Source of the DNA: Chitinophagaceae bacterium IBVUCB1 | GTDB lineage: Bacteria; Bacteroidota; Bacteroidia; Chitinophagales; Chitinophagaceae | Reading direction: 5' to 3' | Assembly (NCBI GenBank): GCA_002127285.1 | Contig: NFUW01000001.1 | Location: forward strand, 508,057 to 572,056 | DNA: 64,000 nucleotides | In this document: positions 2,351-17,745 of the stretch, piece after piece | Numbering within the stretch: the stretch's first letter is position 1 | How the letters are laid out: each line of letters begins with the position of its first letter | Notes under the pieces: model-generated | Database searches by the model: none | Told to the model about the DNA's origin: nothing | Seen by the model: the letters and a program-made list of their open reading frames with translations, nothing else | Made by a program: the position numbers and the translations under genes

Positions 2351-3150
2351 TTAGTGTTTTACTAATTTAAGTTTTGTCTGCTTATTTCCGCATTTAACTT
2401 TCACAATATAGATGCCAGTGCTAAGTCCTTCAACCCCAATAGTCTCTTCCCCACTGTTTTTTGTCATTAACCTACTGCTATAAATAATTTTGCCGCTCAA
2501 ATCGCTTACTTCAATAGTCATGATATCATTGATAGTAGTTTCGTATTTCAGTTTTACGTTGTTAGTAGCCGGGTTGGGATATATTGCAACATTCAATTCG
2601 CCATCTTGACTATGTACAGACGATACACTCGTTGGCTTACCCAAAGTGCGCAGTTCAAATCGTTTATCTCCTTGAGACAGACTATCTGATGTTACATCAA
2701 ATATATAACTGCCGCCACTCAACAACTCAACTTGCTGATTGAGGTATTTATCAAAAAGATACAATTTCGTTCCGGTGGGCATATTGGCTTCGTCAACTTT
2801 TAAAGTATATGTACGTTGGGGCGCGTACACAAGGCCAAGCGGAATGATATTACTGTCTACATATGGCATTACATTGATAGCCATTATTTTATTATCTGCC
2901 GAAAAAGAATAAAGACTAGCGTCTGGGTTATATAACTTCACCGCGTCATGCCAATCGCTATCAGATGTTCCAGCAGCGTCAAAATAAATGCGTGTTTGAT
3001 CCCAGTCTACTGAGTCACTATTACTATATAAATGCAGTAATACACTATTGCTTAATCCTCCTGTTGTTTTGAATACTGTTCCACTTGGAGTAGTTGGATT
3101 TTTGTCTCCTTCTTCAAATGTTATTGTATTGTTGCTATTGGCGCTTACCG
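2351..3150 (-). pseudogene. 5'-truncated T9SS surface protein (C-terminal part only)
   Basis: About 265 residues are recognisable, ending in a type A T9SS sorting domain (VAIYPNPATNN, then SDLSGKIIY, GLSTGIYIVKV and a basic KLKLVKH tail). The preceding stretch (LHLYSNSDSVDWDQTRIYFD, later AINVMPYVDSN) resembles the penultimate region of very large Bacteroidota cell-surface proteins, which are normally many hundreds of residues longer. The reading frame stays open to a GTG at 3253, but everything upstream of about 3150 is the antisense of a response-regulator gene, so the natural N-terminus and signal peptide are gone. The open antisense part happens to encode a signal-like hydrophobic stretch. 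Most likely a dead remnant; expression from the new start is not excluded. Confidence 0.7.
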
Positions 3151-3629
3151 TACAAAAAGCAAAAAACACACAACCTGCTGCATATCTTGTTAAACCTTTT
3201 AATACCGCTTCCTTACTTGTATCGGTAGAGCTTGCGATACACAATTTTGCCACGCTGAGAAATACAGATAAAAAAAACGAAATAGCAGAAGATACAGATG
3301 ATGGTTTTTACCTGAAGGAGGGTTATTTATTTATAAAAGACGGCCAGACTTTTTTCAAAGTTTACATGCACGATATCTTATATTTATCTTCAGATGATAA
3401 TTATATACGTGTAGCAACAAAGCAAAAGAACATACTTGTTCGCTCCACGCTGACGCGTGCTTTGGAAAAATTGCAACAACCCTATTTTGTCCGCATACAC
3501 CGTTCTCACGCAATCAATATAAACAACATCAATTCATTTACAGAAAATGAAGTTGTAGTAGGAAATCAAAAGCTACCTATTGGCAGAAACTACAAAGAAG
3601 AAATAGGCAAAATATTCAAATTCGGATAG
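3150..3629 (+). pseudogene. 5'-truncated LytTR response regulator
   Basis: The frame begins in the last part of a receiver domain (QKAKNTQPAAYLVKPFN, with the conserved Lys-Pro-Phe near its end, then the helix LLVSVELAIHNF) and continues into a complete LytTR DNA-binding domain (DILYLSSDDNYIRV, then VRIHRSHAININNI and the closing LPIGRNYKEEI). The phospho-acceptor Asp and the first two thirds of the receiver are missing. Upstream the frame stays open only because it runs antisense to the T9SS gene fragment. Compared with the intact LytTR regulator at 8828-9589 it is a different paralogue. It could still bind DNA if translated, but no plausible start lies at the domain boundary. I call it a pseudogene. 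Confidence 0.7.
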
Positions 3630-4681: not shown

Positions 4682-7600
4682 TCAGTGGATCGTTTTCATG
4701 TATTCAGTAAGCTCAGCTACAGAGCTTTTAACATCTTTCAGGAAATTTTGTATGTCACCCATATATTCTTGCATATCAACATTTTCATTGTCTTCAATAC
4801 TATTTGCAATCGCAAGGGCTGCAGCCATACCCATGATGGCACATTTAGGCTTAAAGGCATGTAGCAGATTTTTGATTTTTTCAATATCATTGTTTGCTAA
4901 GGATGCTTCCATTTCAGAGTAAAAAGCTGGTACGCTTTTTAAATATAAGTTTATATATTGCTCCATGCGTTTCTCATCATCTTCGCAAAACTCGCTCAAT
5001 TCTGCAAGATTAGTAACATTCCTATTATAATGCTTAACGACATAGGCATTTGTAGTTTGTTGGGCAATACTATTTTCAGTTCTATGCGTTAGTATTGCTA
5101 TCTCTTTAATCAGGGTCTGCGCATTGAATGGCTTAGTAATACAAACATTCATACCCGCTGTTAGACATTCTTGCATATATACATGCTGCACACTCGCTGT
5201 CATTGCTATAATCGGGATATCTCTTTTACTTGCATCAAAATCCTTTCTGATGTGCTTAGTTGCTTCAATACCGCTCATCACAGGCATTTGTGCATCCATC
5301 AAAATAATATCATACTCTTTTTCAGGTAGCAAATCCAGTGCCTCTTTGCCATTTGTTGCAATATCAATCGTCACATCCGCTTTCAATTTCAGTGTATCAA
5401 TTACTGCCCACCTATTATATTCATTATCATCTACTAATAAAATATTCAGTCCGTTTAGCAAGCTACCGTCAATTTGTTGTGATATTTTCAGTATGCTGTT
5501 TGTTTCGTCAGCATCGGTACGCAACAGCGGAATTATAAATGAAAATACAGAGCCTACATTGGGGATGCTTTCGGCAGCAATGCTGCCGCCCATCAGCGTT
5601 ACGAGTCCCTTTGATATGGAAAGTCCAAGACCAGTGCCACCGTGTATTCTGGTATCAGATGTATTTACTTGTGCAAAGTCTCTAAATAATAATTTTAGTT
5701 TATCGAATGATATGCCAATACCAGTATCGGTAATTATTAGTTTAATACTGTCTTCCTGCGCCAACTCTACACAAATAGATACATAGCCCTTTTCTGTAAA
5801 TTTTATAGAATTGTTGCATAGATTTAATAATACCTGGCTCAGCCTGTAAGGGTCCCCTTTTATCACATCCGGTACATTGTCGTTGACTGTTACTTTAAGT
5901 TGCAGATTTTTCTCTTTTGCCAATACTGATAGTGTTTCTGCTACATCGGTTATGGTTTGTCTTAAAGAAAAAGGAATATTTTCAAGCTGTAGCTTGCCAG
6001 CATCCATTTTAGAAATATCCAGTACATCGTTTATGATGTGTAACAGTAGCCCAGAAGATTTTGAAATAGCAGTCAGGTATTGTACCTGCTCGGGCTTGGG
6101 TTCTTTTTCTATCAATAGATTCACAAAGCTATTCACTGCATTCATTGGCGTACGTATTTCGTGGCTCATGTTTGCCAGAAATTGTTGACGCAACCGTTCA
6201 CTTATTTCCGCCTTTTCTTTTTGTTCCTTGTATTGTATGGTTCGTTCCTCCACTTGTTTTTCCAAAAGCCTTGTGCGCTTCTCAAAGGTACGGGTGCGAT
6301 ATCTATTGTATGAGTATGTAACGGCAACCACTGATAAAAAACAAGCTGTATAAAACCACCAAGATTGCCACCACGGTGTTGCTATCTCTATGGTCAATGG
6401 CAAGCTCTCGCTCGTGTACTTGCCGTCTCTGGTACTGGCGCGCACTTTAAAAACATAGGTACCTGGGTTAAGATTTGTAAAGTTAGCTTCTTGCTTATCA
6501 GCAATATTTACCCAATCATCATTCAGCCCTTCCAGTTTGTAAGCATAGTTGTACGATACATTCTCTGTATAATTAAGCAGATTATAATTGATTGTAATGA
6601 AGTTTTGATCGTGTGCAAAATGATACATCCCTTTTATAAACGCTGAGGAATCAGCTTTTACTGGCTTGTTGAACAACTTAAACCCTGTAACATAAATAGG
6701 GGGCACAGTATTTTTATCTCTCAATCTTTTCGGGTAAAATTTGACCAAGCCCTCATTGGCAGTAAAATATACGGCATCGTCGTAGCTATCATATACCATT
6801 TTATATTCAGGCTTGTGCACAGGCATATCTCGGTATGGCTCGTAGGTGGTTATTTCATTGTCAGCATTCATTTTTATCAACGCATCGCTGGTGATAAACC
6901 ACATATTACCATCTCCATCTTCGGTCATACCCCGTATGCTACTATCTGGCAAATGTTTTATCTGCTTATAACTAAACCACTTATTACTGTCAATATCAAG
7001 CAAGTCAAGTCTTCTATTACTGGCTATCCACAATCTGTTTTTTGCATCAACATACATTGCTTTTACTATCTCGTCTTTATAAGCAGTCCTTGTATTGCTA
7101 ACAAGCTTAGTTACTTTATTGTCCTTCCCAATTTTTATGACTATATCTCCGGGTGTCAAATACAACGAAGCCCATAAATCACCATTTCTGTCTTTTACTA
7201 CAATGTTATTAATCCCATTTATTATACTATCCGTTTTTCGAGTATTGACGTAGAATACAAATGTGAATTTTCCAAAATGGTTAGCAAACAAGCTGGTATC
7301 ATTTCGTTCTGTTAATGATAAAATATTAAGCGGTATTCTGCTTGAATATTTTCTATATGGGTATGGTATCAGTTGCCCTTTATTGGGATAGTACTTCCAT
7401 AAATCGTTGATATATGCCACCCAAAAATGTCCTAATACAGATGGATATATAGCCTGTACTTTCTCTGCTTCATTTTGGCTATTAAACATTCTGAATTTTT
7501 GCAACAATTTCACATCGTTAGTACGTGTATCTAATACGGTCAGCCCATCGCTACCACCCAGCAATATGCGCCCTTCGCCGTCTGTACACATTGCATGTAT

Positions 7601-8794
7601 AGTTACGTCTTCAACCCTGTTATTGGGCCGTATCTTTAGGAAGCTATAGGGGTACACTATAAAATCTTGTTTAGGCGGGTCTATTATGTTAATGCCGCCA
7701 CCTATTGTACCAATCCAAATCCTGCTGCTCCTATCTTTATATATGTACCTTACAAAGTCATCAGACAGACTGTTGGGGTTTCGCGGATTATTCTTATAAT
7801 TTGTGAATTTCCAAGTAGTGGTATCAAGCACACTCAATCCCCCACCCTCTGTAGCCAGGTATAGTTTACCATTGAGTTGGCAAATAGAACGAACTATATC
7901 GTTTGACAAACTTTGCGGGTCGTCGTCTTGAAACTTAAATCCGATAAATGATTTTGAGGCGATGTGATATCGCAATAAGCCTGCATAGGTTCCAAACCAC
8001 AAGTTGCCGCTACCATCGGGCTGTATGGTATGCACTAAGCGGTGCATATGCTTTACGCTGCCCTTATAACGCTTGTTAATTAGCGCCTCTTCGATAGGTA
8101 ATGCGTAGAACCTGTTTGTTCTGAAGTCGAAATAATTGATGCCTCCTGCATTACGTAAGTCTTTATGCAGGTTACCGCCAGCCTCAAAAGTGCCTACTAT
8201 GTATTTGTCGTCAGATAATTCGTAGATAGATTTACACTTAATACCAGCTATGCAATAGGGGTCGTTTTGCTTCCATACATGATGAATGAATGTTTGTGCT
8301 TTCTCATCAAACAAGTCAAGCCCACCGCCATATAAACATATCCAAAATCTGCCCTTGCTATCTTCGTATATCTGCGCTACGTAGCCTGTATTAATACTTC
8401 CGGGCTTCTTTGCGTCATGCTCATATCGCTTGAACTGTTGTGTAACAGGATTGTAAATAGTAATCCCATTGTTTTGTGTACCTATCCATATTCTACCCTG
8501 CCTATCTTCAAATAGCGCACTGACGTAGTTCCCGCTCAGGCTATTGGTATCTTTCGAATTATGAACAAACAGTTCAAAGTTTTTACCATCGTACCGGTTC
8601 AAACCCTTATCTGTACCAAACCACATAAACCCCTTGTGGTCTTGCAATATGGCACTAACCGTATTGCCTGCCAAGCCGTGAGACATATTCAGATGCCTGA
8701 ACACAACCGGCTGCCCTAAATCATTGTCAATATTGTTCTGGGCAAATGCAGCAGATGCCAAAAGCACGAGGCATATCAGTAGCACTCTTTTCAT
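4682..8794 (-). CDS. Hybrid sensor histidine kinase with two-component propellers and Hpt
   Basis: A 1370-residue membrane sensor. Signal peptide (about 1-19, ending AFA before QNN). Then periplasmic two-component-regulator propeller repeats (repeated GFMWFGTDKGLNRYD-like blades, about 30-700), a Y_Y_Y domain (about 730-800), one membrane segment (about 812-828), a coiled coil, HisKA with the phospho-His in SHEIRTP at about residue 878, HATPase with N, G1 and G2 boxes (DTGIGI, GGTGLGL), a receiver domain at about 1115-1238 with Asp near 1167, and a C-terminal Hpt domain with His near 1312 (LLHAFKPK). Classical Bacteroidota hybrid regulators end in an AraC-type HTH; this one ends in Hpt and so must pass phosphate to another protein. 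The LytTR regulator 33 bp upstream is the obvious receiver. The ligand is unknown. Confidence 0.92.
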   Translation of the reverse strand: MKRVLLICLVLLASAAFAQNNIDNDLGQPVVFRHLNMSHGLAGNTVSAILQDHKGFMWFGTDKGLNRYDGKNFELFVHNSKDTNSLSGNYVSALFEDRQGRIWIGTQNNGITIYNPVTQQFKRYEHDAKKPGSINTGYVAQIYEDSKGRFWICLYGGGLDLFDEKAQTFIHHVWKQNDPYCIAGIKCKSIYELSDDKYIVGTFEAGGNLHKDLRNAGGINYFDFRTNRFYALPIEEALINKRYKGSVKHMHRLVHTIQPDGSGNLWFGTYAGLLRYHIASKSFIGFKFQDDDPQSLSNDIVRSICQLNGKLYLATEGGGLSVLDTTTWKFTNYKNNPRNPNSLSDDFVRYIYKDRSSRIWIGTIGGGINIIDPPKQDFIVYPYSFLKIRPNNRVEDVTIHAMCTDGEGRILLGGSDGLTVLDTRTNDVKLLQKFRMFNSQNEAEKVQAIYPSVLGHFWVAYINDLWKYYPNKGQLIPYPYRKYSSRIPLNILSLTERNDTSLFANHFGKFTFVFYVNTRKTDSIINGINNIVVKDRNGDLWASLYLTPGDIVIKIGKDNKVTKLVSNTRTAYKDEIVKAMYVDAKNRLWIASNRRLDLLDIDSNKWFSYKQIKHLPDSSIRGMTEDGDGNMWFITSDALIKMNADNEITTYEPYRDMPVHKPEYKMVYDSYDDAVYFTANEGLVKFYPKRLRDKNTVPPIYVTGFKLFNKPVKADSSAFIKGMYHFAHDQNFITINYNLLNYTENVSYNYAYKLEGLNDDWVNIADKQEANFTNLNPGTYVFKVRASTRDGKYTSESLPLTIEIATPWWQSWWFYTACFLSVVAVTYSYNRYRTRTFEKRTRLLEKQVEERTIQYKEQKEKAEISERLRQQFLANMSHEIRTPMNAVNSFVNLLIEKEPKPEQVQYLTAISKSSGLLLHIINDVLDISKMDAGKLQLENIPFSLRQTITDVAETLSVLAKEKNLQLKVTVNDNVPDVIKGDPYRLSQVLLNLCNNSIKFTEKGYVSICVELAQEDSIKLIITDTGIGISFDKLKLLFRDFAQVNTSDTRIHGGTGLGLSISKGLVTLMGGSIAAESIPNVGSVFSFIIPLLRTDADETNSILKISQQIDGSLLNGLNILLVDDNEYNRWAVIDTLKLKADVTIDIATNGKEALDLLPEKEYDIILMDAQMPVMSGIEATKHIRKDFDASKRDIPIIAMTASVQHVYMQECLTAGMNVCITKPFNAQTLIKEIAILTHRTENSIAQQTTNAYVVKHYNRNVTNLAELSEFCEDDEKRMEQYINLYLKSVPAFYSEMEASLANNDIEKIKNLLHAFKPKCAIMGMAAALAIANSIEDNENVDMQEYMGDIQNFLKDVKSSVAELTEYMKTIH

Positions 8795-8827: not shown

Positions 8828-9589
8828 TCAGAATTGCGAAACGAGTTTTAGTAATTCATCTTTTTTTCTTCTCGATACATCCAGTGCCGTACCATTTGCC
8901 ATAATCACTTGCCCGCCTTCGCCTTTTAAATATTTCTTCAGATGATGCAGGTTAATAAGATGCGATTTATGTATTCTGAAAAAACCATGCGATAAAAGCA
9001 ATTCTTCAAAACTACCGAGTGTCCTCGACGACATAATCATCTTATTATCGTGCAAGTATATTTTAGTATATCTGTCATCACCTTCGCAATATACTATATC
9101 GTCAAGGCCAATAAACAGTAAGCCTTCCATGGTAGGTATTGCCAGGTTCTCTATTTTCGTTTTGGCTTGTGTTACCACTTCCATTTGCCATAGCGATAGG
9201 TCAGCATTGCTGCTGCGCTTTTCATTAACCCGGCTTACAGCTTCTTGCAGGTCTGTTACGTTTACGGGTTTTAACAAATAATCTATTGCCGAAAAACGTA
9301 TGGCTCTGATAGCATAATGCTCATGCGATGTGGTAAAAATAATCTCGAAGTTGATAGCCGGTAGTTTTTTCAGCATATCAAACCCACTCATACCGCCAGG
9401 CATTTCTACATCCAGAAATACAACATCCGGCTTCAAAGATGATAGCTTCCCGATAGCATCTTCCGCACTGTTAAATACGGCTATCACATCCACATTGCCC
9501 ACCTTATGCTTTATAACATCTTGCAGGTGAAAACAAGAAAACTCGTCGTCGTCTATTATAACTGCTTTTAGTTGGTAAGGGGTACCCAT
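8828..9589 (-). CDS. LytTR-family response regulator
   Basis: A 253-residue regulator: receiver domain (about 7-125; acidic pocket IIDDDEF, phospho-acceptor in VVFLDVEMPGG near residue 56, and the conserved Lys in LLKPVN near 107) followed by a LytTR DNA-binding domain (about 150-250; IVYCEGDDRYTKIY, FRIHKSHLINLHHL, then DVSRRKKDELL). It is co-directional with and directly upstream of the hybrid kinase, so it is very likely the final acceptor of that phosphorelay. LytTR proteins bind pairs of direct repeats about two helical turns apart, and such pairs occur upstream of 11979 and 14903. The start codon lies inside the arm of a perfect hairpin (9585-9618). Confidence 0.93.
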   Translation of the reverse strand: MGTPYQLKAVIIDDDEFSCFHLQDVIKHKVGNVDVIAVFNSAEDAIGKLSSLKPDVVFLDVEMPGGMSGFDMLKKLPAINFEIIFTTSHEHYAIRAIRFSAIDYLLKPVNVTDLQEAVSRVNEKRSSNADLSLWQMEVVTQAKTKIENLAIPTMEGLLFIGLDDIVYCEGDDRYTKIYLHDNKMIMSSRTLGSFEELLLSHGFFRIHKSHLINLHHLKKYLKGEGGQVIMANGTALDVSRRKKDELLKLVSQF

Positions 9590-9618
9590 TCCCTAAAGAT
9601 AATATTTTAGGGAATGGG
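9585..9618 (-). terminator. Perfect hairpin between protease and LytTR genes, overlapping the regulator start
   Basis: Inverted repeat with 14-base arms (CCCATTCCCTAAA core) around an eight-base loop. It lies 18 bases after the protease stop at 9637 and its distal arm contains the ATG of the LytTR gene (9587-9589). It can serve as the protease terminator and can also mask the regulator start. The arm TTAGGGAATGG resembles the LytTR-box half-site GTAGGGAACGG. Confidence 0.6.
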
Positions 9619-9636
9619 CAATACCTCATTTACTAT

Positions 9637-11979
9637 TTATTGCTTTATAATTTTATATACGGCCTCTTCCCCATTGCTTGCTATGCGCAGTATATATATA
9701 CCTGCGGGGTTGTTGCCCATATTCACTATCTGCTCGCTACCGCCTGTCAATGTACCTACATTATTACTATATACTATTTTGCCGGTAATGTCTGCAATAT
9801 TTATCGTCGTATTATTAGCCTGCTTGTCAAAAGCTATGTGCAGTTCATTGCTTGCAGGGTTAGGATATACTTTCAACGTATTTTTAACGGCTGCTTTTTC
9901 TATACTCAGCGTCATACCCATAAAGGCATTTATTTTACCCCAGCCCCATGTATTGCTGCCAGTAGCAGGTATTGTACCTGTATAGCTATCGGTAATAGCG
10001 GTCTTCTTCATCATATCCAATGCCTGCTCTCTTGTAAGGCTTGGATATTTCTGCAACCACAATGCCAATATACCAGTAACCACTGGGCAAGCCATAGATG
10101 TACCAGACATAGTACCAAAATACCAAGTATCTGAACCATGTGTTACGCTCTTAACCGTACTATTATATGTTGGGCTATATAGTGTGGAAAATCTATTTAC
10201 AGAAGAAGCTATAGCATTGCCGGGAGCTGTTATCTCCGGTTTGGTTCTGCCATCTGCCGTAGGCCCTCTGCTTGAATTAGGCGCAATATTACCGACAGCA
10301 GTATTTGATACTATATCAAGGCCTGCTTGTTGATTATATAATGATATCCAGTGATTTTTTGTGGTATAAGACCCAACAGTAATAACACTATTACCAGTAG
10401 CATAACCATCAGATACGGTATAATCTGTACGGCCATCAAGAACCAGATTAGCTACATTATTAATACCTGCAACCGCTATGTACCCTAAATTAGTAAACCA
10501 AGTATTATAACTGAATTGTCCCCACATCTGAATACTCGTGTTGTATCCTGTAACTTCTAACAATACCCTTCTGCCTGTACTATCCGGTTGTGTATTCACA
10601 AAAGCTATAGTAATATGAGGTTTACCGTTAACAGGGCTGATTTCAGTACTATATAGTACAACAGCTTGTATACCATTACTTCCATACAATGTGTCAAACA
10701 TCGTCATATTAGATGTTGCAGGTATTTTAAACATTTGAGCATCCTCAATTTTATTTGTTTTTGTGTTGTATAGCAACATCCGTACAGCAAAATTCTCATT
10801 AACATTCCCCCAGATGTTCATGCGACCAACATCATTAGGACCTTTACGCATAATAGGAAATGTGTAGAAAACAGTATCTGTAAAAACGAACTTATGGTCT
10901 ATATACATCGGGTTAATCCCATCATTACCGGCAGCCACTACAATTAACTTGCCGGGGCCAACAGTGCTATCTGTAAATTTATCTTCGGTGCTGGTACCAT
11001 CATGAGGGCCAGATTGTCCGCCCAAACTCATATTAATAACACATGGTTTGCCAACAGATGCAGCATATGCCTGTATATACTTTATACCATCTGCTATAGA
11101 GGGAGATGTAAATTTGCTTGCTACCAAAACTAATTCGCTTTCATAAGCTACGCCTCGATATGGGCTGCCCGGGTAGCCTCCGGAACCTGCCGCTATACCT
11201 GCTGTATGTGTGCCATGGTCAGAATCTTTGTTGGTTTGAAAAAATGGAAAATCAGCTTTTGCATTCAGTATCTGTGCTTCTGTAATATACTCTCCGCCAT
11301 AAGCGTAGCCCGTAGGCGGCACACCTGAGTTATCAAATTGATTCCAAACTCTTTTTACACGATAATTATATTGCCCGGTGCTATCGTAAAAGTTAGGGTG
11401 GGTAAAATCAATGCCCTGATCAATTACACCCACTACTACACCTTTACCTGTATAGGGCATATTCAACGGTGCCATGCCTGCATGTACTTTGTCTACATTC
11501 GTTTGTTTGCGGGCACTATCCATCGTAGAGCTTAAAACGCTGCCTATATCCACATATCTTACATTGGGCTGCTTTACTATCTCTGCTATAAGCTCTACAG
11601 GCAACATAGCCGTAAATACATCACCCGATTTGCTGCCTGGCAGTACACCCAACTCGCCCAATGATGCAGTGGTAAATCCTTTTGTTCCCATCAGGAAGGA
11701 GTTGGCATATAACTTGCCGCCCTTTTTAATTAAGCCATATTTTTCAATCAATTCTTTTTCTTTGGTTGTAGATGGATTGCTTTTAAACTGCATCCAATCT
11801 ACCAATAACAAAGCTGTATTGGCAGACATACCTTTGGTAGAAAAAAGACCGTCCTTTTCTGTAAGATAGCCTGTAGCAGGCGGTATGGCAGGGAGCGTTT
11901 TCCCAATACCGTTTTCCTGTCCTTGCGCATTGATGGCAAATGCCAGGAATAGAATTAAGTAAATGTTTAGATGTTTCAT
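9637..11979 (-). CDS. T9SS-secreted subtilisin-like serine protease (S8), copy A
   Basis: A 780-residue secreted endopeptidase. Signal peptide (about 1-20), propeptide (about 45-150), S8 catalytic domain with Asp187 (VVGVIDQGID), His255 (DHGTHTAG), oxyanion Asn352 (AAGNDG) and Ser628 (GTSMACP), a large insert between Asn and Ser (about 370-520), and a type A T9SS sorting domain (about 700-780; VYPNPASNELHIAF, GIYILRI, ending YKIIKQ). The full catalytic triad is intact. Its paralogue lies directly upstream; both ends of the two genes are nearly identical while the centres differ, so they probably cut different substrates or differ in surface loops. It has its own promoter with a LytTR-type box upstream (12035-12065) and is followed by the hairpin at 9585-9618. 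Confidence 0.95.
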   Translation of the reverse strand: MKHLNIYLILFLAFAINAQGQENGIGKTLPAIPPATGYLTEKDGLFSTKGMSANTALLLVDWMQFKSNPSTTKEKELIEKYGLIKKGGKLYANSFLMGTKGFTTASLGELGVLPGSKSGDVFTAMLPVELIAEIVKQPNVRYVDIGSVLSSTMDSARKQTNVDKVHAGMAPLNMPYTGKGVVVGVIDQGIDFTHPNFYDSTGQYNYRVKRVWNQFDNSGVPPTGYAYGGEYITEAQILNAKADFPFFQTNKDSDHGTHTAGIAAGSGGYPGSPYRGVAYESELVLVASKFTSPSIADGIKYIQAYAASVGKPCVINMSLGGQSGPHDGTSTEDKFTDSTVGPGKLIVVAAGNDGINPMYIDHKFVFTDTVFYTFPIMRKGPNDVGRMNIWGNVNENFAVRMLLYNTKTNKIEDAQMFKIPATSNMTMFDTLYGSNGIQAVVLYSTEISPVNGKPHITIAFVNTQPDSTGRRVLLEVTGYNTSIQMWGQFSYNTWFTNLGYIAVAGINNVANLVLDGRTDYTVSDGYATGNSVITVGSYTTKNHWISLYNQQAGLDIVSNTAVGNIAPNSSRGPTADGRTKPEITAPGNAIASSVNRFSTLYSPTYNSTVKSVTHGSDTWYFGTMSGTSMACPVVTGILALWLQKYPSLTREQALDMMKKTAITDSYTGTIPATGSNTWGWGKINAFMGMTLSIEKAAVKNTLKVYPNPASNELHIAFDKQANNTTINIADITGKIVYSNNVGTLTGGSEQIVNMGNNPAGIYILRIASNGEEAVYKIIKQ

Positions 11980-11996
11980 ACAGAGTATTTATATTC

Positions 11997-12004
11997 CAAA
12001 CTTC
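11997..12004 (-). promoter_or_regulatory. Weak -7 element of protease copy A
   Basis: Coding-strand GAAGTTTG, a partial match to the Bacteroidota -7 consensus TAnnTTTG. The same octamer lies at the same distance from the same box upstream of 14903, which supports a real promoter that needs an activator. Confidence 0.55.
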
Positions 12005-12034: not shown

Positions 12035-12065
12035 GTAGCCAACGGCAGAAATGAGTAGTAAGTGG
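12035..12065 (-). promoter_or_regulatory. LytTR-type double box upstream of protease copy A
   Basis: Half-sites GTAGCCAACGG (12035-12045) and GTAGTAAGTGG (12055-12065), period 20 bp. The spacer CAGAAATGA is almost identical to that of the box at 14960-14990. The near edge is 30 bp upstream of the -7 element. Confidence 0.6.
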
Positions 12066-12082
12066 CATGGGCTTGTAAACAA

Positions 12083-12107
12083 CAAAGCCCCGTGTTAAGG
12101 AGCTTTG
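12083..12107 (-). terminator. Terminator of protease copy B
   Basis: Minus-strand CAAAGCTCC, seven-base loop, GGGGCTTTG, then TTGTTT, about 45 bases beyond the stop at 12151. Nine-pair stem with one G-T pair. Confidence 0.65.
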
Positions 12108-12150
12108 CTGTATCGTTTAATAAAGGGGCAATGGCATTGTTTTATATAAG

Positions 12151-14454
12151 TTATTGCTTCACAATCTTATATACAGCCTCTTCTCCATTGCTTGCTATGC
12201 GCAGTATATATATTCCTGCAGGGTTGTTGCCCATATTCACTATCTGCTCGCTACCGCCTGTCAATGAACCTACATTATTGCTATATACTATTTTGCCGGT
12301 AATGTCTGCAATGGTTATCATTGTATTATTTGCCTGCTTGTCAAAAGCTATGTGCAGTTCATTGCTTGCAGGGTTAGGATATACTTTCAGCGTATTTTTA
12401 ACGGCTGCTTTTTCTACACTCAGCGTCATACCCATAAAGGCATTTATTTTACCCCAGCCCCATGTATTGCTGCCCGTAGCAGGTATTGTACCTGTATAAC
12501 TATCTGTAATGGCAGTCTTCTTCATCATATCCAATGCCTGCTGTCTTGTAAGGTTTGGATATTTCTGCAGCCACAATGCCAATATGCCAGTAACCATAGG
12601 GCAAGACATGGATGTACCTTGCATACTACCAAAATACCACGTATCAGACCCATGAGTAACACTTTTTAGTGTACCCGTGGCTGTAGCAGAATAACGAGGC
12701 GAATAGTGATTAACAGATGATACTATAACGTTACCCGGTGCAGTAATATCCGGCTTTGTTCTACCATCAGCAGTTGGGCCAATGCTTGAAAATGGTGCTA
12801 TTTCTCCAATTGGTGCCATAAAAGGGGTATACGTTTGTTGATTAAATAATGATATCCATTGATTTTTTGAGGTATAAGCACCTACTGTAATAACGTTATT
12901 ACCACATGGCCCGCCTTCACCTATACTATGATCTGTGCGACCATTTGTTACGCCAGCAATACCCAAACTCGAAAAAGTGCCAGTTAGATTCCACATTTGA
13001 ATGCTGGTATTCAACCCTGAAACTTCTATAAATATTTTTTTATGATTACTATCTGGCTGGTTATTCTTGACATATAAATAAACATGGGGTTTCGAATTTA
13101 TGGGATCTATTTCACAAGTATATTGAGCCCATGATTTTATACCATTAGTACTATATATAGTATCAATGATAATAGTATTGAGCGCAGCAGCGAATTTAAG
13201 AGCAGGGGCATATTCTATTGTTGGAATCTTTGTGTTGAGTGTCATTACCCTTACCGAAAAATTTTCATTGGGTTTACCCCATATATCAATACCAATTTCG
13301 CCTTGCGATTTACCACCTGCATCTACCGGGATAGTGTACAAAATATCATTTGAAAGCAAGAAATCATGATCTATAAACAGGTGGTCATCTCCGCTATTAC
13401 CCGCAGACTGTGCCAGCAATTTTCCGGGTCCAGCCAAACTGTCCCTATATCTATCGCTTATGCTAGTACCATCGTGAGGACCATATTGGCCACCAAAGCT
13501 CATATTAATAACACATGGTTTACCAACAGATGCGGCATAATCCTGTATATATTTTATTGCATCCGCAGCTGTAGATGGTATTAATGGGCATGCTACCAAA
13601 ACTATGTCGCTTTCGTAAGCTACGCCTCTATAAGGGCTGCCAGGGTAGCCACCTGCGCCAGCTACAGTACCTGCGGTATGTGTACCATGATCTGTACCAC
13701 TTGATATTTGTTGAAAAAATGGGTAATCAGCTTTTGCATTTAATATCTGTGCCTCCGTTATGTACTCTCCGCCGTAAGCATAACCTGCTGGTGGCACACC
13801 TGTACCATCAAACTGATTCCAAACCCTTTTTACACGATAATTTTTTTGCCCTGTGCTGTCATAAAAATTAGGATGGGTAAAATCAAAGCCCTGATCAATG
13901 ATACCCACAACTACACCTTTACCCGTATAGGGCATATTCAATGGTGCCATACCTGCATGTACTTTATCTACGTTGGTTTGCCTGCGGGCACTATCCATCG
14001 TTGGGCTTAAAACGCTGCCTATATCCACATACCTCACATTGGGTTGTTTTACTATCTCTGCTATGCGCTCTACCGGCAACATAGCAGTAAATACATCGCC
14101 CGATTTGCTACCAGGCAGTACACCTAACTCACCAAGCGAAGCGGTAGTAAATCCTTTTATACCCATCAGGAAAGAGTTGGCATATAGCTTGCCACCCTTT
14201 TTAATTAAGCCGTACTTCTCTATCAGTTCCTTTTCGCCAATAGCAGATGGGTTCTTATTAAGCTGCATCCAATCTACCAACAACAAAGCTGTATTGGCAG
14301 ACATGCCTTTTGTAGAAAAAAGGCCGTCTTTTTCTGTAAAGTAGCCTGTAGCAGGTGGTATGGCAGGGAGCGTTTTCCCAGTACCGTTTTCCTGCGCTTT
14401 GGCATTAAAGCCAAATGCCAGGAATAGAAGAAAGAGAATGTTGAGCTGTTTCAT
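12151..14454 (-). CDS. T9SS-secreted subtilisin-like serine protease (S8), copy B
   Basis: A 767-residue paralogue of copy A with the same plan: signal peptide (about 1-20, ending AKA before QEN), propeptide (about 45-150), catalytic Asp187 (DQGFDFTHP), His256 (DHGTHTAG), oxyanion Asn near 353 (AGNSGD), Ser615 (GTSMSCP), and a C-terminal type A sorting domain. The first 280 or so and last 170 or so residues are almost the same as copy A, whereas residues about 285-560 diverge. This points to tandem duplication with continued exchange at the ends. It starts 11 bases after the propeptide-like gene and is surely co-transcribed with it. The triad is intact, so it should be active after secretion and propeptide removal. 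Confidence 0.95.
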   Translation of the reverse strand: MKQLNILFLLFLAFGFNAKAQENGTGKTLPAIPPATGYFTEKDGLFSTKGMSANTALLLVDWMQLNKNPSAIGEKELIEKYGLIKKGGKLYANSFLMGIKGFTTASLGELGVLPGSKSGDVFTAMLPVERIAEIVKQPNVRYVDIGSVLSPTMDSARRQTNVDKVHAGMAPLNMPYTGKGVVVGIIDQGFDFTHPNFYDSTGQKNYRVKRVWNQFDGTGVPPAGYAYGGEYITEAQILNAKADYPFFQQISSGTDHGTHTAGTVAGAGGYPGSPYRGVAYESDIVLVACPLIPSTAADAIKYIQDYAASVGKPCVINMSFGGQYGPHDGTSISDRYRDSLAGPGKLLAQSAGNSGDDHLFIDHDFLLSNDILYTIPVDAGGKSQGEIGIDIWGKPNENFSVRVMTLNTKIPTIEYAPALKFAAALNTIIIDTIYSTNGIKSWAQYTCEIDPINSKPHVYLYVKNNQPDSNHKKIFIEVSGLNTSIQMWNLTGTFSSLGIAGVTNGRTDHSIGEGGPCGNNVITVGAYTSKNQWISLFNQQTYTPFMAPIGEIAPFSSIGPTADGRTKPDITAPGNVIVSSVNHYSPRYSATATGTLKSVTHGSDTWYFGSMQGTSMSCPMVTGILALWLQKYPNLTRQQALDMMKKTAITDSYTGTIPATGSNTWGWGKINAFMGMTLSVEKAAVKNTLKVYPNPASNELHIAFDKQANNTMITIADITGKIVYSNNVGSLTGGSEQIVNMGNNPAGIYILRIASNGEEAVYKIVKQ

Positions 14455-14465
14455 ATAGTTGATAT

Positions 14466-14903
14466 TTAATTGACTTCAAGTTTTTTGGATAGTTCGAAAT
14501 AGGTAATGCCTTTTTGATTCAGAAATGACGTAAAAGCAGATAGTGGAATCATAACCGTTCTGATGCCCCCTGATGGCTGCCCCGGATGCACTTTTATCTT
14601 CCTGAGTTTTTTCTCTGAAAAGGCATTATTGGTTTGTATAAAACCGCTTATGTAATACTTGCCCTTTATTTTTTGCAGGTTGTATTTTTCAACAAATCGT
14701 GTACTAGGAACAAAGTTTTTTAAGGTCTGTTTTGATGCATTCAGTTCATTCTGCAAATCCAACATCAACATTTTAGCATCTACTGATACAGGAAAGCTGC
14801 CCAGCTCTATTTTGTTAGTAGCAGTTTGTGCACGTACAGTGGTGCAGCAGGCAAAGAAGAATATTAGGAGTATCGGCATCAAAAAAATGCTAAACGGCTT
14901 CAT
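14466..14903 (-). CDS. Secreted stand-alone protease-propeptide-like protein
   Basis: A 145-residue protein with a Sec signal peptide (about 1-25; hydrophobic core then VRA before QTA). I do not know a named family for it. The mature part aligns by eye with the propeptides of the two neighbouring S8 proteases: VEKYNLQKIKGKYYISGF against IEKYGLIKKGGKLYANSF, a KVHPGQPSGGIRTVMIP stretch against GVLPGSKSGDVFTAMLP, and ITYFELSKKL against VRYVDIGSVL. It stops just where the proteases pass into their catalytic domain. It is the first gene of the transcript, 11 bases ahead of protease copy B. Likely roles are folding helper or inhibitor acting in trans. A decayed third protease copy is the main alternative, although the frame and ending are clean. 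Cys19-Cys20 could mimic a lipobox, but the fit is poor. Confidence 0.75.
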   Translation of the reverse strand: MKPFSIFLMPILLIFFFACCTTVRAQTATNKIELGSFPVSVDAKMLMLDLQNELNASKQTLKNFVPSTRFVEKYNLQKIKGKYYISGFIQTNNAFSEKKLRKIKVHPGQPSGGIRTVMIPLSAFTSFLNQKGITYFELSKKLEVN

Positions 14904-14921
14904 ACGGCGTATTTATGAGTC

Positions 14922-14929
14922 CAAACTTC
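14922..14929 (-). promoter_or_regulatory. Weak -7 element of the propeptide-protease operon
   Basis: GAAGTTTG on the coding strand, 19 bases ahead of the start at 14903. Same octamer as upstream of 11979, at the same offset from the double box. Confidence 0.55.
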
Positions 14930-14959
14930 ACGCTAATTGAAATGAAATACTACCGCTAT

Positions 14960-14990
14960 GTAGGGAACGGCAGAAATGGGTAGGGAACGG
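14960..14990 (-). promoter_or_regulatory. LytTR-type double box in the divergent promoter region
   Basis: Two identical half-sites GTAGGGAACGG at 14960-14970 and 14980-14990, 20-bp period. Read on the other strand they contain CCGTT, fitting the general LytTR site form. It lies between the protease operon and the divergent DUF3667 gene. Confidence 0.65.
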
Positions 14991-16363: not shown

Positions 16364-16727
16364 TGGAACCGGCGGGATTCGAACCCGCGTCCAAACATAT
16401 GCCCGATAAGCTTTCTACATGTGTATTCCTGCATTTGATTTCGGAAAGTTGCCGGAGCAGGACGAACCTACAATTTCCCTATCTGCTTTAGTTTCGCCCC
16501 GCAGGCGCAGCACTACGAGACTATCCTATTGATGGTTGAGTTAGGCGGCGGTAGCGTCAACAGGCCAAAGCCAGCCGCGGCCATAATGGTTGCGCTAATT
16601 TAATTAGGCAGCCATGGCAAAGTTAGATTCGCCATTTAAAAGTTGAATATTCAGATTTACGTGCTAATTATCCAACGCACGACATGCTTACTTACCCTGC
16701 CCTATGCTGTCAAAACCAGTCGGCCCC
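16364..16727 (-). ncRNA. ssrA: Transfer-messenger RNA (tmRNA)
   Basis: Rescues stalled ribosomes with SmpB by adding a degradation tag. The 5' end GGGGCCGACTGG and 3' end CGGTTCCA form a seven-pair acceptor stem with two G-T pairs; the T-arm is GGGTTCGAATCCC. The tag frame runs from 16633 down to 16607 and reads GESNFAMAA, followed by TAA at 16606-16604; the resume triplet may be preceded by the charged Ala. Length 364 nt, single piece. CCA is not encoded (the next bases are CAA), so it is added after transcription. An inverted repeat TTGACA-GT-TGTCAA (16736-16749) lies in the leader. The unrelated open frames that cross this gene should be ignored. Confidence 0.95.
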
Positions 16728-16783
16728 AAAATCAGTTGACAGTTGTCAATTGGCAGTTCTTGTAATTTTTCAAAGAACTGATG

Positions 16784-16791
16784 CAAAGTTA
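16784..16791 (-). promoter_or_regulatory. -7 element upstream of tmRNA
   Basis: TAACTTTG on the minus strand, exact TAnnTTTG. It would start a precursor with a leader of about 50 nt ahead of the mature 5' end. Confidence 0.45.
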
Positions 16792-16839
16792 CGAAACATG
16801 CACCGTTTTATATTGTTAAATTGGCAACCGTTTACTGCA

Positions 16840-17745
16840 ATGCTGAAAATAGCCTTCCATAGCCTCTATGCACACCCGCTACCTGCGGGGCATCGCTTCC
16901 CTATGGAAAAATATGAGTTGATACCCGCACAGCTTCTGCACGAGGATATCATTACCCAAGACAACCTCTTTGCACCTCACCCTGCTGACGAAGCTACCAT
17001 ACTGCTGACACATGATGCTGATTATTGGCAGCGTATGAAGAATCTGCAACTGACCGAAAAAGAAATACGCGCCATCGGGTTTCCGTTATCTGCTAAGTTG
17101 GTAGAACGTGAGATAAGGATATGCCAAGGCACAATAGACTGCGCCATGTATGCACTGCAATATGGTGCGGCACTGAATGTAGCAGGCGGCACACACCATG
17201 CTTTTGCCAACAAGGGAGAGGGCTTTTGCCTGCTGAATGATTTTGCTGTGGCGGCTAATTATTTGCTGCAGCAAAAAATGGTAAGGAAAATACTTATTGT
17301 TGATTTGGATGTGCATCAGGGTAATGGCACAGCAGCATTATTTGCAGGCAGAGATGATGTATTTACATTCAGTATGCACGGGCAGCACAATTATCCTTTT
17401 CATAAAGAAAAAAGCCATCTAGATATAGGGTTGCAAGACGGCACAACGGGCAGCGAATATCTTGCCATACTGAACGATACATTGCCCCGATTGATTGACA
17501 CAGTTCGCCCAGATGTAGTTTTTTACCTATGTGGTGTAGATGTATTGGCTACTGACAAATTTGGCAAGCTGAAGCTGACGATGGACGAATGTGCTGAGCG
17601 TGATTTAGTTGTATATACCCTTTGCAAAAAGCATGGCATACCTGTTGCAGCCGCAATGGGTGGCGGTTATTCGCCCAAAGTAAAGCATATTGTAAACGCG
17701 CATTGCAATACATTCCGTATTGCTAAAGATGTGTATGGTCTTTAG
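16840..17745 (+). CDS. Histone-deacetylase-family amidohydrolase
   Basis: A 301-residue zinc-dependent deacetylase-fold enzyme, cytoplasmic. Visible motifs: GGTHHAFANKGEGFCLLND (the paired active-site His and the following Cys/Asn region), IVDLDVHQGNGTA (Asp and His zinc ligands), FSMHGQHNYPF, CGVDVLATDKFGKLKLT (third zinc ligand Asp), and AAMGGGYS near the end. The natural substrate in bacteria is not known; acetylpolyamines or acetylated proteins are possible. The ATG at 16840 is chosen because longer starts at 16684 or 16798 would run through the tmRNA gene or its promoter and add residues the family lacks. It ends tail to tail with the nucleotidyltransferase gene, overlapping by four bases. 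Confidence 0.88.
   Translation: MLKIAFHSLYAHPLPAGHRFPMEKYELIPAQLLHEDIITQDNLFAPHPADEATILLTHDADYWQRMKNLQLTEKEIRAIGFPLSAKLVEREIRICQGTIDCAMYALQYGAALNVAGGTHHAFANKGEGFCLLNDFAVAANYLLQQKMVRKILIVDLDVHQGNGTAALFAGRDDVFTFSMHGQHNYPFHKEKSHLDIGLQDGTTGSEYLAILNDTLPRLIDTVRPDVVFYLCGVDVLATDKFGKLKLTMDECAERDLVVYTLCKKHGIPVAAAMGGGYSPKVKHIVNAHCNTFRIAKDVYGL

Follow-up and report, generated by a model that had tools for sequence, protein, structure and literature searches.

Paired direct repeats before two secreted-subtilase promoters as putative operators of a LytTR response regulator in a Chitinophagaceae bacterium

LytTR regulators are numerous in Bacteroidota. The direct-repeat operator of such proteins is of a known kind, and a defined LytTR regulon of Bacteroidota appears to be undescribed in the literature searched, in which no operator or regulon of a LytTR response regulator of this group was found; the nearest description concerns LRS-like repeats (PMC6193735). 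The 64,000-nucleotide stretch of Chitinophagaceae bacterium IBVUCB1 analysed here (the window) raises the question in a concrete form, since two promoters that lead into subtilase genes are each preceded by a double box of direct repeats, and a LytTR response regulator and a hybrid kinase are encoded close by. Which protein reads these boxes, and what does it control? The features concerned are, in window positions:

14960..14990, minus strand: double box 1, coding strand CCGTTCCCTAC-CCATTTCTG-CCGTTCCCTAC, putative operator of smallI and protease B
14922..14929, minus strand: smallI promoter, -7 octamer GAAGTTTG; box 1 lies 30 bp upstream, and the start is predicted at about 14917
14466..14903, minus strand: smallI (145 aa), free-standing, putative subtilase pro-domain homologue with a lipoprotein-like signal peptide; target 1
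12151..14454, minus strand: protease B, subtilase (Peptidase_S8) with a type IX secretion tail, separated from smallI by 11 bp and sharing its promoter
12035..12065, minus strand: double box 2, CCACTTACTAC-TCATTTCTG-CCGTTGGCTAC, putative operator of protease A and probably of regulator and kinase too
11997..12004, minus strand: protease A promoter, -7 octamer GAAGTTTG; box 2 lies 30 bp upstream, and the start is predicted at about 11992
9637..11979, minus strand: protease A, subtilase with a type IX secretion tail; target 2
8828..9589, minus strand: LytTR response regulator (REC and LytTR), 47 bp behind protease A, proposed binder of both boxes
4682..8794, minus strand: hybrid histidine kinase (Reg_prop propeller, Y_Y_Y, HisKA, HATPase, REC, Hpt), proposed sensor

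On the plus strand, box 1 consists of GTAGGGAACGG twice (14960-14970 and 14980-14990, a 20-bp period) and box 2 of GTAGCCAACGG (12035-12045) and GTAGTAAGTGG (12055-12065). Read on the coding strand, both sites take the form CCNNTNNCTAC-N9-CCNNTNNCTAC-N34-TTTG, with 11-bp direct repeats at a 20-bp period, and at both, the start offset between the box edge and the octamer, CAAACTTC when read on the plus strand and GAAGTTTG on the coding strand, is exactly 31 bp. The initial annotation had described the two boxes, their period and the offset to a shared octamer, all of which were confirmed in the sequence; its description was refined in that the half-site is best read as CCGTTNNCTAC on the coding (minus) strand and the octamer belongs to the unit, which runs CCGTTNNCTAC, 9 bases, CCGTTNNCTAC, 30 bases, GAAGTTTG. 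Between the two sites, identity is 0.77 for the box, 0.47 for the 30-bp interval and 1.00 for the octamer, and the statement that the flanks had diverged more than the box thus holds for the genome's own copies. As judged from sequence conservation, the conserved unit is the box plus the octamer at a fixed distance, not the box alone.

The paired pattern GTAGNNANNGG-N9-GTAGNNANNGG matches only the two boxes in the 64-kb window, where 0.01 matches are expected, and none of 100 shuffled windows held two matches. A scan of the 3.41-Mb genome, as proposed with the initial annotation, returned the two boxes as the only exact matches; allowing one mismatch adds just four, poorer and scattered, and a 77-position model gives two strong matches (6.6e-14 and 4.0e-13), the third (E 0.4) being at chance level. 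A chance origin of the boxes is ruled out by these window counts, shuffles, genome pattern matches and model E-values. Since only two sites score in this genome, the regulon there would comprise two promoters, in keeping with the small local regulon predicted at the outset (4682, 8828, 11979 and 14903). An RNA element was also considered and rejected: with the box positioned ahead of the -7 octamer, the transcript from that promoter would not contain it. An Rfam search of the window returned a tmRNA only (RF00023; 16361-16727, minus strand), the gene of which overlaps the annotatable start of ORF 16684-17745; the true start of this ORF is probably further downstream.

The REC and LytTR domains of the regulator, the latter at residues 140-253, are clearly recognized (PF00072, 1.9e-19; PF04397, 8.8e-19). 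Its residues 203-209 read FFRIHKS, to be compared with the FhRhHRS motif of LytTR domains; K replaces R at a position where AgrA has N (PMC4227749). A PDB sequence search with the regulator returned receiver-domain matches only and no LytTR-DNA complex. The kinase gene lies 33 bp behind the regulator gene. Because the two gaps measure 47 and 33 bp, and because the corresponding genes of G226, a genome of another genus, all run in one direction, the protease A operon probably ends with regulator and kinase, which the initial annotation had treated as a separate next operon. Such co-transcription would therefore establish positive feedback, the regulator being likely autoregulated via box 2.

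Two further observations concern this part of the window. A strong hairpin of about 15 bp (z -5.5) spans the regulator start codon in the minus-strand transcript (9584-9619); it is kept in the congeners G012 and G007 with wobble changes and is absent in G226, one of its arms, CCATTCCCTAA, resembles the half-site, and translational coupling between protease A and the regulator is a possible role. The ORF at 3048-3629 encodes a LytTR domain, and its upstream part resembles a receiver-domain end only; a LytTR regulator gene may have been truncated here, and the ORF overlaps the beginning of the gene for a type IX tail protein (2351-3253).

The predicted targets are exported proteins. The type IX tail of both subtilases is a Por secretion tail. 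No Pfam family was matched by smallI, which is 27-31% identical to protease N-termini (E 1e-7 to 1e-9). Foldseek matches of its model are, at the top, mostly subtilase propeptides, with probabilities of 0.9-1.0 and E-values of at least 0.03. Cys20 is conserved in a lipobox-like context, the homologue in G226 begins MKHLWIFVAFGLMAAGC, and in four species smallI immediately precedes the protease. The protein looks like a lipid-anchored, free-standing propeptide, and it is possible that it acts as an inhibitor giving the producer self-protection.

In a genus sample of 15 genomes, the regulator is present in three (100, 87 and 86% identity; the next best match is at about 40%), and the double box is found in exactly these three. 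Other LytTR response regulators occur in all 15 genomes, and the box therefore tracks the 8828-9589 regulator. Comparison of orthologous upstream regions, another check proposed earlier, showed that the box and its 31-bp offset are kept in G012 and G007 (regulators 87 and 86% identical) and, outside the genus, in G226 (62%). In these relatives the 30-bp interval is 0.4-0.5 identical versus 0.8-0.9 for the box; among the orthologous promoters of the three genus species, the values are 0.52 and 0.91. G012 has a single protease and a single box. In G007, which also has one protease, four boxes were recognized. The first is the orthologous one; the second, 2 kb away, precedes the gene for a 482-aa protein. 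The third, on a different contig, stands before genes for a C39-peptidase ABC exporter and for a 168-aa protein whose leader is of the double-glycine type. The fourth, a weaker one, precedes a gene whose product has a type IX tail. A -7 octamer (GAAGTTTG, CAAGTTTG or GAGGTTTA) is equidistant from every box of the three genus genomes, bar the weak fourth. The region beneath the third box (L070:5803-8613), in which the leader reads EEQLAKVNGG, would represent a bacteriocin-like export operon in the regulon of this sister species.

A search of 396 genomes of the family yielded two more regulators at E<1e-75, and a further scan of genome contigs gave no additional regulator orthologue. In G226, box, smallI, protease, regulator and kinase follow each other in the same orientation, and AAGATTTG is found at the canonical distance; this order is probably the ancestral arrangement, which would place the regulator inside its own target operon. 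A family-wide pattern scan with three mismatches stayed at background level, a reversed-pattern control giving at least as many matches, and the weight of the G226 site therefore comes not from match number but from its correct geometry and its position 2.8 kb from the regulator. In a third genus (g121, eight genomes), the regulator is 62-69% identical and mostly lies beside a small secreted protein of another family. The site in one genome (G334) was found first by eye, and a prediction was recorded before the other seven loci were opened; six fit by the simple pattern, and the seventh (G446) by a sequence model at 5e-6. When mismatches of 18 are counted within 1.3 kb upstream of the regulator, G334 (4 mismatches) being included among the eight loci, 5/8 match at <=3 mismatches and 7/8 at <=4; shuffled regions match in 0/800 and 4/800 cases. 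Paralogous LytTR loci match in 0/27 cases at the strict and 1/27 at the loose threshold, and a box common to all LytTR regulators was rejected on these counts.

Many sites of the third genus contain three repeats, the additional one lying another 20-21 bp upstream. A good box with a -7 octamer in G441 (L097:9250-9318) is oriented away from the regulator, has no obvious gene downstream in its direction and adjoins a hairpin, AACCGTTCCC...GGGAACGGTT; it is possibly an eroded target or serves a small transcript. Downstream of several box promoters of this genus (L133, L134, L135, L098 and L099) lies a conserved leader, roughly 120 nt long, with DUF805b, an Rfam cis-regulatory motif (RF02914). As a regulon marker this leader was discarded, the motif being widespread and present also in genomes without the regulator.

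A sequence-only model built from 18 sites (R1) was run on 30 genomes. Matches at E<1e-5 were obtained in 12/12 genomes with the regulator, a result that is partly by construction as most of them supplied training sites, and in 0/18 congeners without it, where the best value was 0.014. Outside the training set, R1 matched G446 and about ten other sites, among them G438:C117 (1.3e-14 and 2.5e-13), G444:C54 (1.3e-11 and 4.7e-9), G444:C37 (8.2e-11) and G446:C659 (4.9e-10). Genes for lipase-like proteins, small secreted proteins and proteins of unknown function are among those near the dispersed sites, and an OAA-family lectin gene is found near a site at the G438 regulator locus. The 12 regulators form one clade with support of 1.0, apart from 27 paralogues. 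The octamer has A at position 2 in 18/18 sites and G at position 4 in 17/18, neither of which was ever in a search pattern; TTTG was part of the pattern for the later sites, not for the first six. The box was found at 12/12 regulator loci in three genera, so that nowhere was the regulator kept without it, the finding that the initial annotation had named as contrary to its proposal. Together with the absence of the box from congeners without the regulator, this co-occurrence, which is a correlation over three genera and clustered within them, supports the original suggestion of a LytTR operator.

The double boxes are thus very probably the operators of the 8828-9589 regulator, acting as activator sites with probable positive feedback. 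We infer binding, activation rather than repression, the phosphorelay and the operon structure, activation being deduced from the position of the box only. The hybrid kinase (4682-8794) would phosphorylate the regulator via its REC and Hpt domains, and the regulator would bind both direct repeats CCGTTNNCTAC, two helical turns apart, with one subunit per repeat. The TAnnTTTG octamer of Flavobacterium spans -12 to -5 (PMC9723704); numbered by this analogy, the box is predicted to cover -73 to -43, which leaves 7 bp between it and the -33 position; the latter precedes the octamer by 19 bp. The place is of the activator type, because the box does not overlap the core promoter, and dependence on an activator is well suited here because the -7 and -33 elements of the window promoters are weak. 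Bound at about -73 to -43, the regulator would aid RNA polymerase at promoters with a poor -7 octamer and -33 region, at box 1 activating smallI and protease B, and at box 2 protease A and, by read-through, also regulator and kinase.

The same regulator might instead repress, the promoters staying off until a signal releases the bound protein. LytTR repressors do exist, CoxC binding three direct repeats over -35 (PMC11347149). The CoxC site overlaps -35, however, whereas the boxes described here end upstream of -33 and about 30 bp from the -7 element, and poor core promoter elements suit an activator better, so that we regard repression as improbable. It is still less probable that the boxes are the operator of another DNA-binding protein travelling with the locus. 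Co-occurrence of box and regulator is a correlation and binding is assigned from sequence, which leaves room for such a protein, but the regulator is the one DNA-binding gene common to all neighbourhoods examined; regulator and box remain associated across genera that have different kinases and targets, the repeat form is of the LytTR type, and the other LytTR regulators of the same genomes do not follow the box.

Proteases A and B are close paralogues with related upstream regions, and the similarity of the sites could accordingly be a mere remnant of the duplication that produced them. The initial annotation already doubted that duplication alone would suffice, and we consider this explanation hardly credible. 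Box and octamer outlast the interval between them, G012 and G226 keep the box beside a single protease, which we count as refutation, and boxes occur in other genera and, with the same offset, before unrelated genes in G007.

If the double boxes are indeed activator sites of the 8828-9589 regulator, the operator of one LytTR clade is now laid out with its exact promoter geometry and targets, and the proposed sensor is linked with secreted proteolysis as well as with a protein that may serve self-protection. Relatives would have extended the regulon to other exported proteins. Tentatively, and with considerable doubt, the locus may be read as a Gram-negative exoprotein regulon of the Agr/Com type, in which a LytTR phosphorelay co-induces a type IX-secreted subtilase together with a lipoprotein-like, free-standing propeptide protecting the producer from it, with the operator having spread in relatives. 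If this were true, the spread would cover a double-glycine-leader peptide with its C39 exporter as well as small secreted, lectin-like and lipase-like proteins.

Known LytTR sites consist of 9-bp repeats 10-13 bp apart, that is, with a 19-22 bp period (PMC11347149), and the 20-bp period of the window and related sites lies within this direct-repeat range. As in LytTR operators, the box stands upstream of the -33 region, the starts being predicted. AgrA, acting at S. aureus agr P2/P3 with promoter-proximal repeats centred near -60 (PMC4227749), and the streptococcal HdrR/BrsR systems likewise rely on paired direct repeats that are spaced by some two turns of the helix and sit near -60, ahead of the -35 region; as proposed here, they show positive autoregulation and count exported proteins or peptides and exporters among their targets (PMC4227749, PMC6193735). 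In contrast to these systems, the sites described here combine a 20-bp period (11-bp repeats, 9-bp spacer) and the half-site CCGTTNNCTAC with a Bacteroidota-type core promoter, and a hybrid kinase bearing REC and Hpt domains would provide the input.

LRS-like LytTR operons of Bacteroides (B. thetaiotaomicron, B. ovatus) also place 11-bp direct repeats before a Bacteroidota promoter. Their promoters read TGTA-19 bp-TATCTTTG (PMC6193735, Table 3), with the -33 position 19 bp before -7 as in the window, and their repeats, ACCGTAAATCA / TCCGGTATTCA (PMC6193735), contain CCG, as does CCGTTNNCTAC, which is not a textbook LytTR consensus. The LRS-like repeats have an 11-bp spacer (22-bp period) and end 11 bp before -33, whereas those in the window end 7 bp before it, and the LRS-like regulator is a membrane protein without a kinase, unlike the window regulator. 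The three repeats at 18-21 bp intervals of CoxC and RcoM resemble the three-repeat sites of the third genus; CoxC represses from a site overlapping -35, and the sites of the window have two repeats only. HTCS proteins unite sensor, kinase and AraC-type DNA-binding domain in a single polypeptide. With the HTCS of Bacteroidota the window kinase shares the periplasmic Reg_prop propeller and Y_Y_Y on a hybrid kinase; Pfam detects no DNA-binding domain in 4682-8794, and in place of the single HTCS polypeptide the output consists of an Hpt domain and a separate LytTR regulator.
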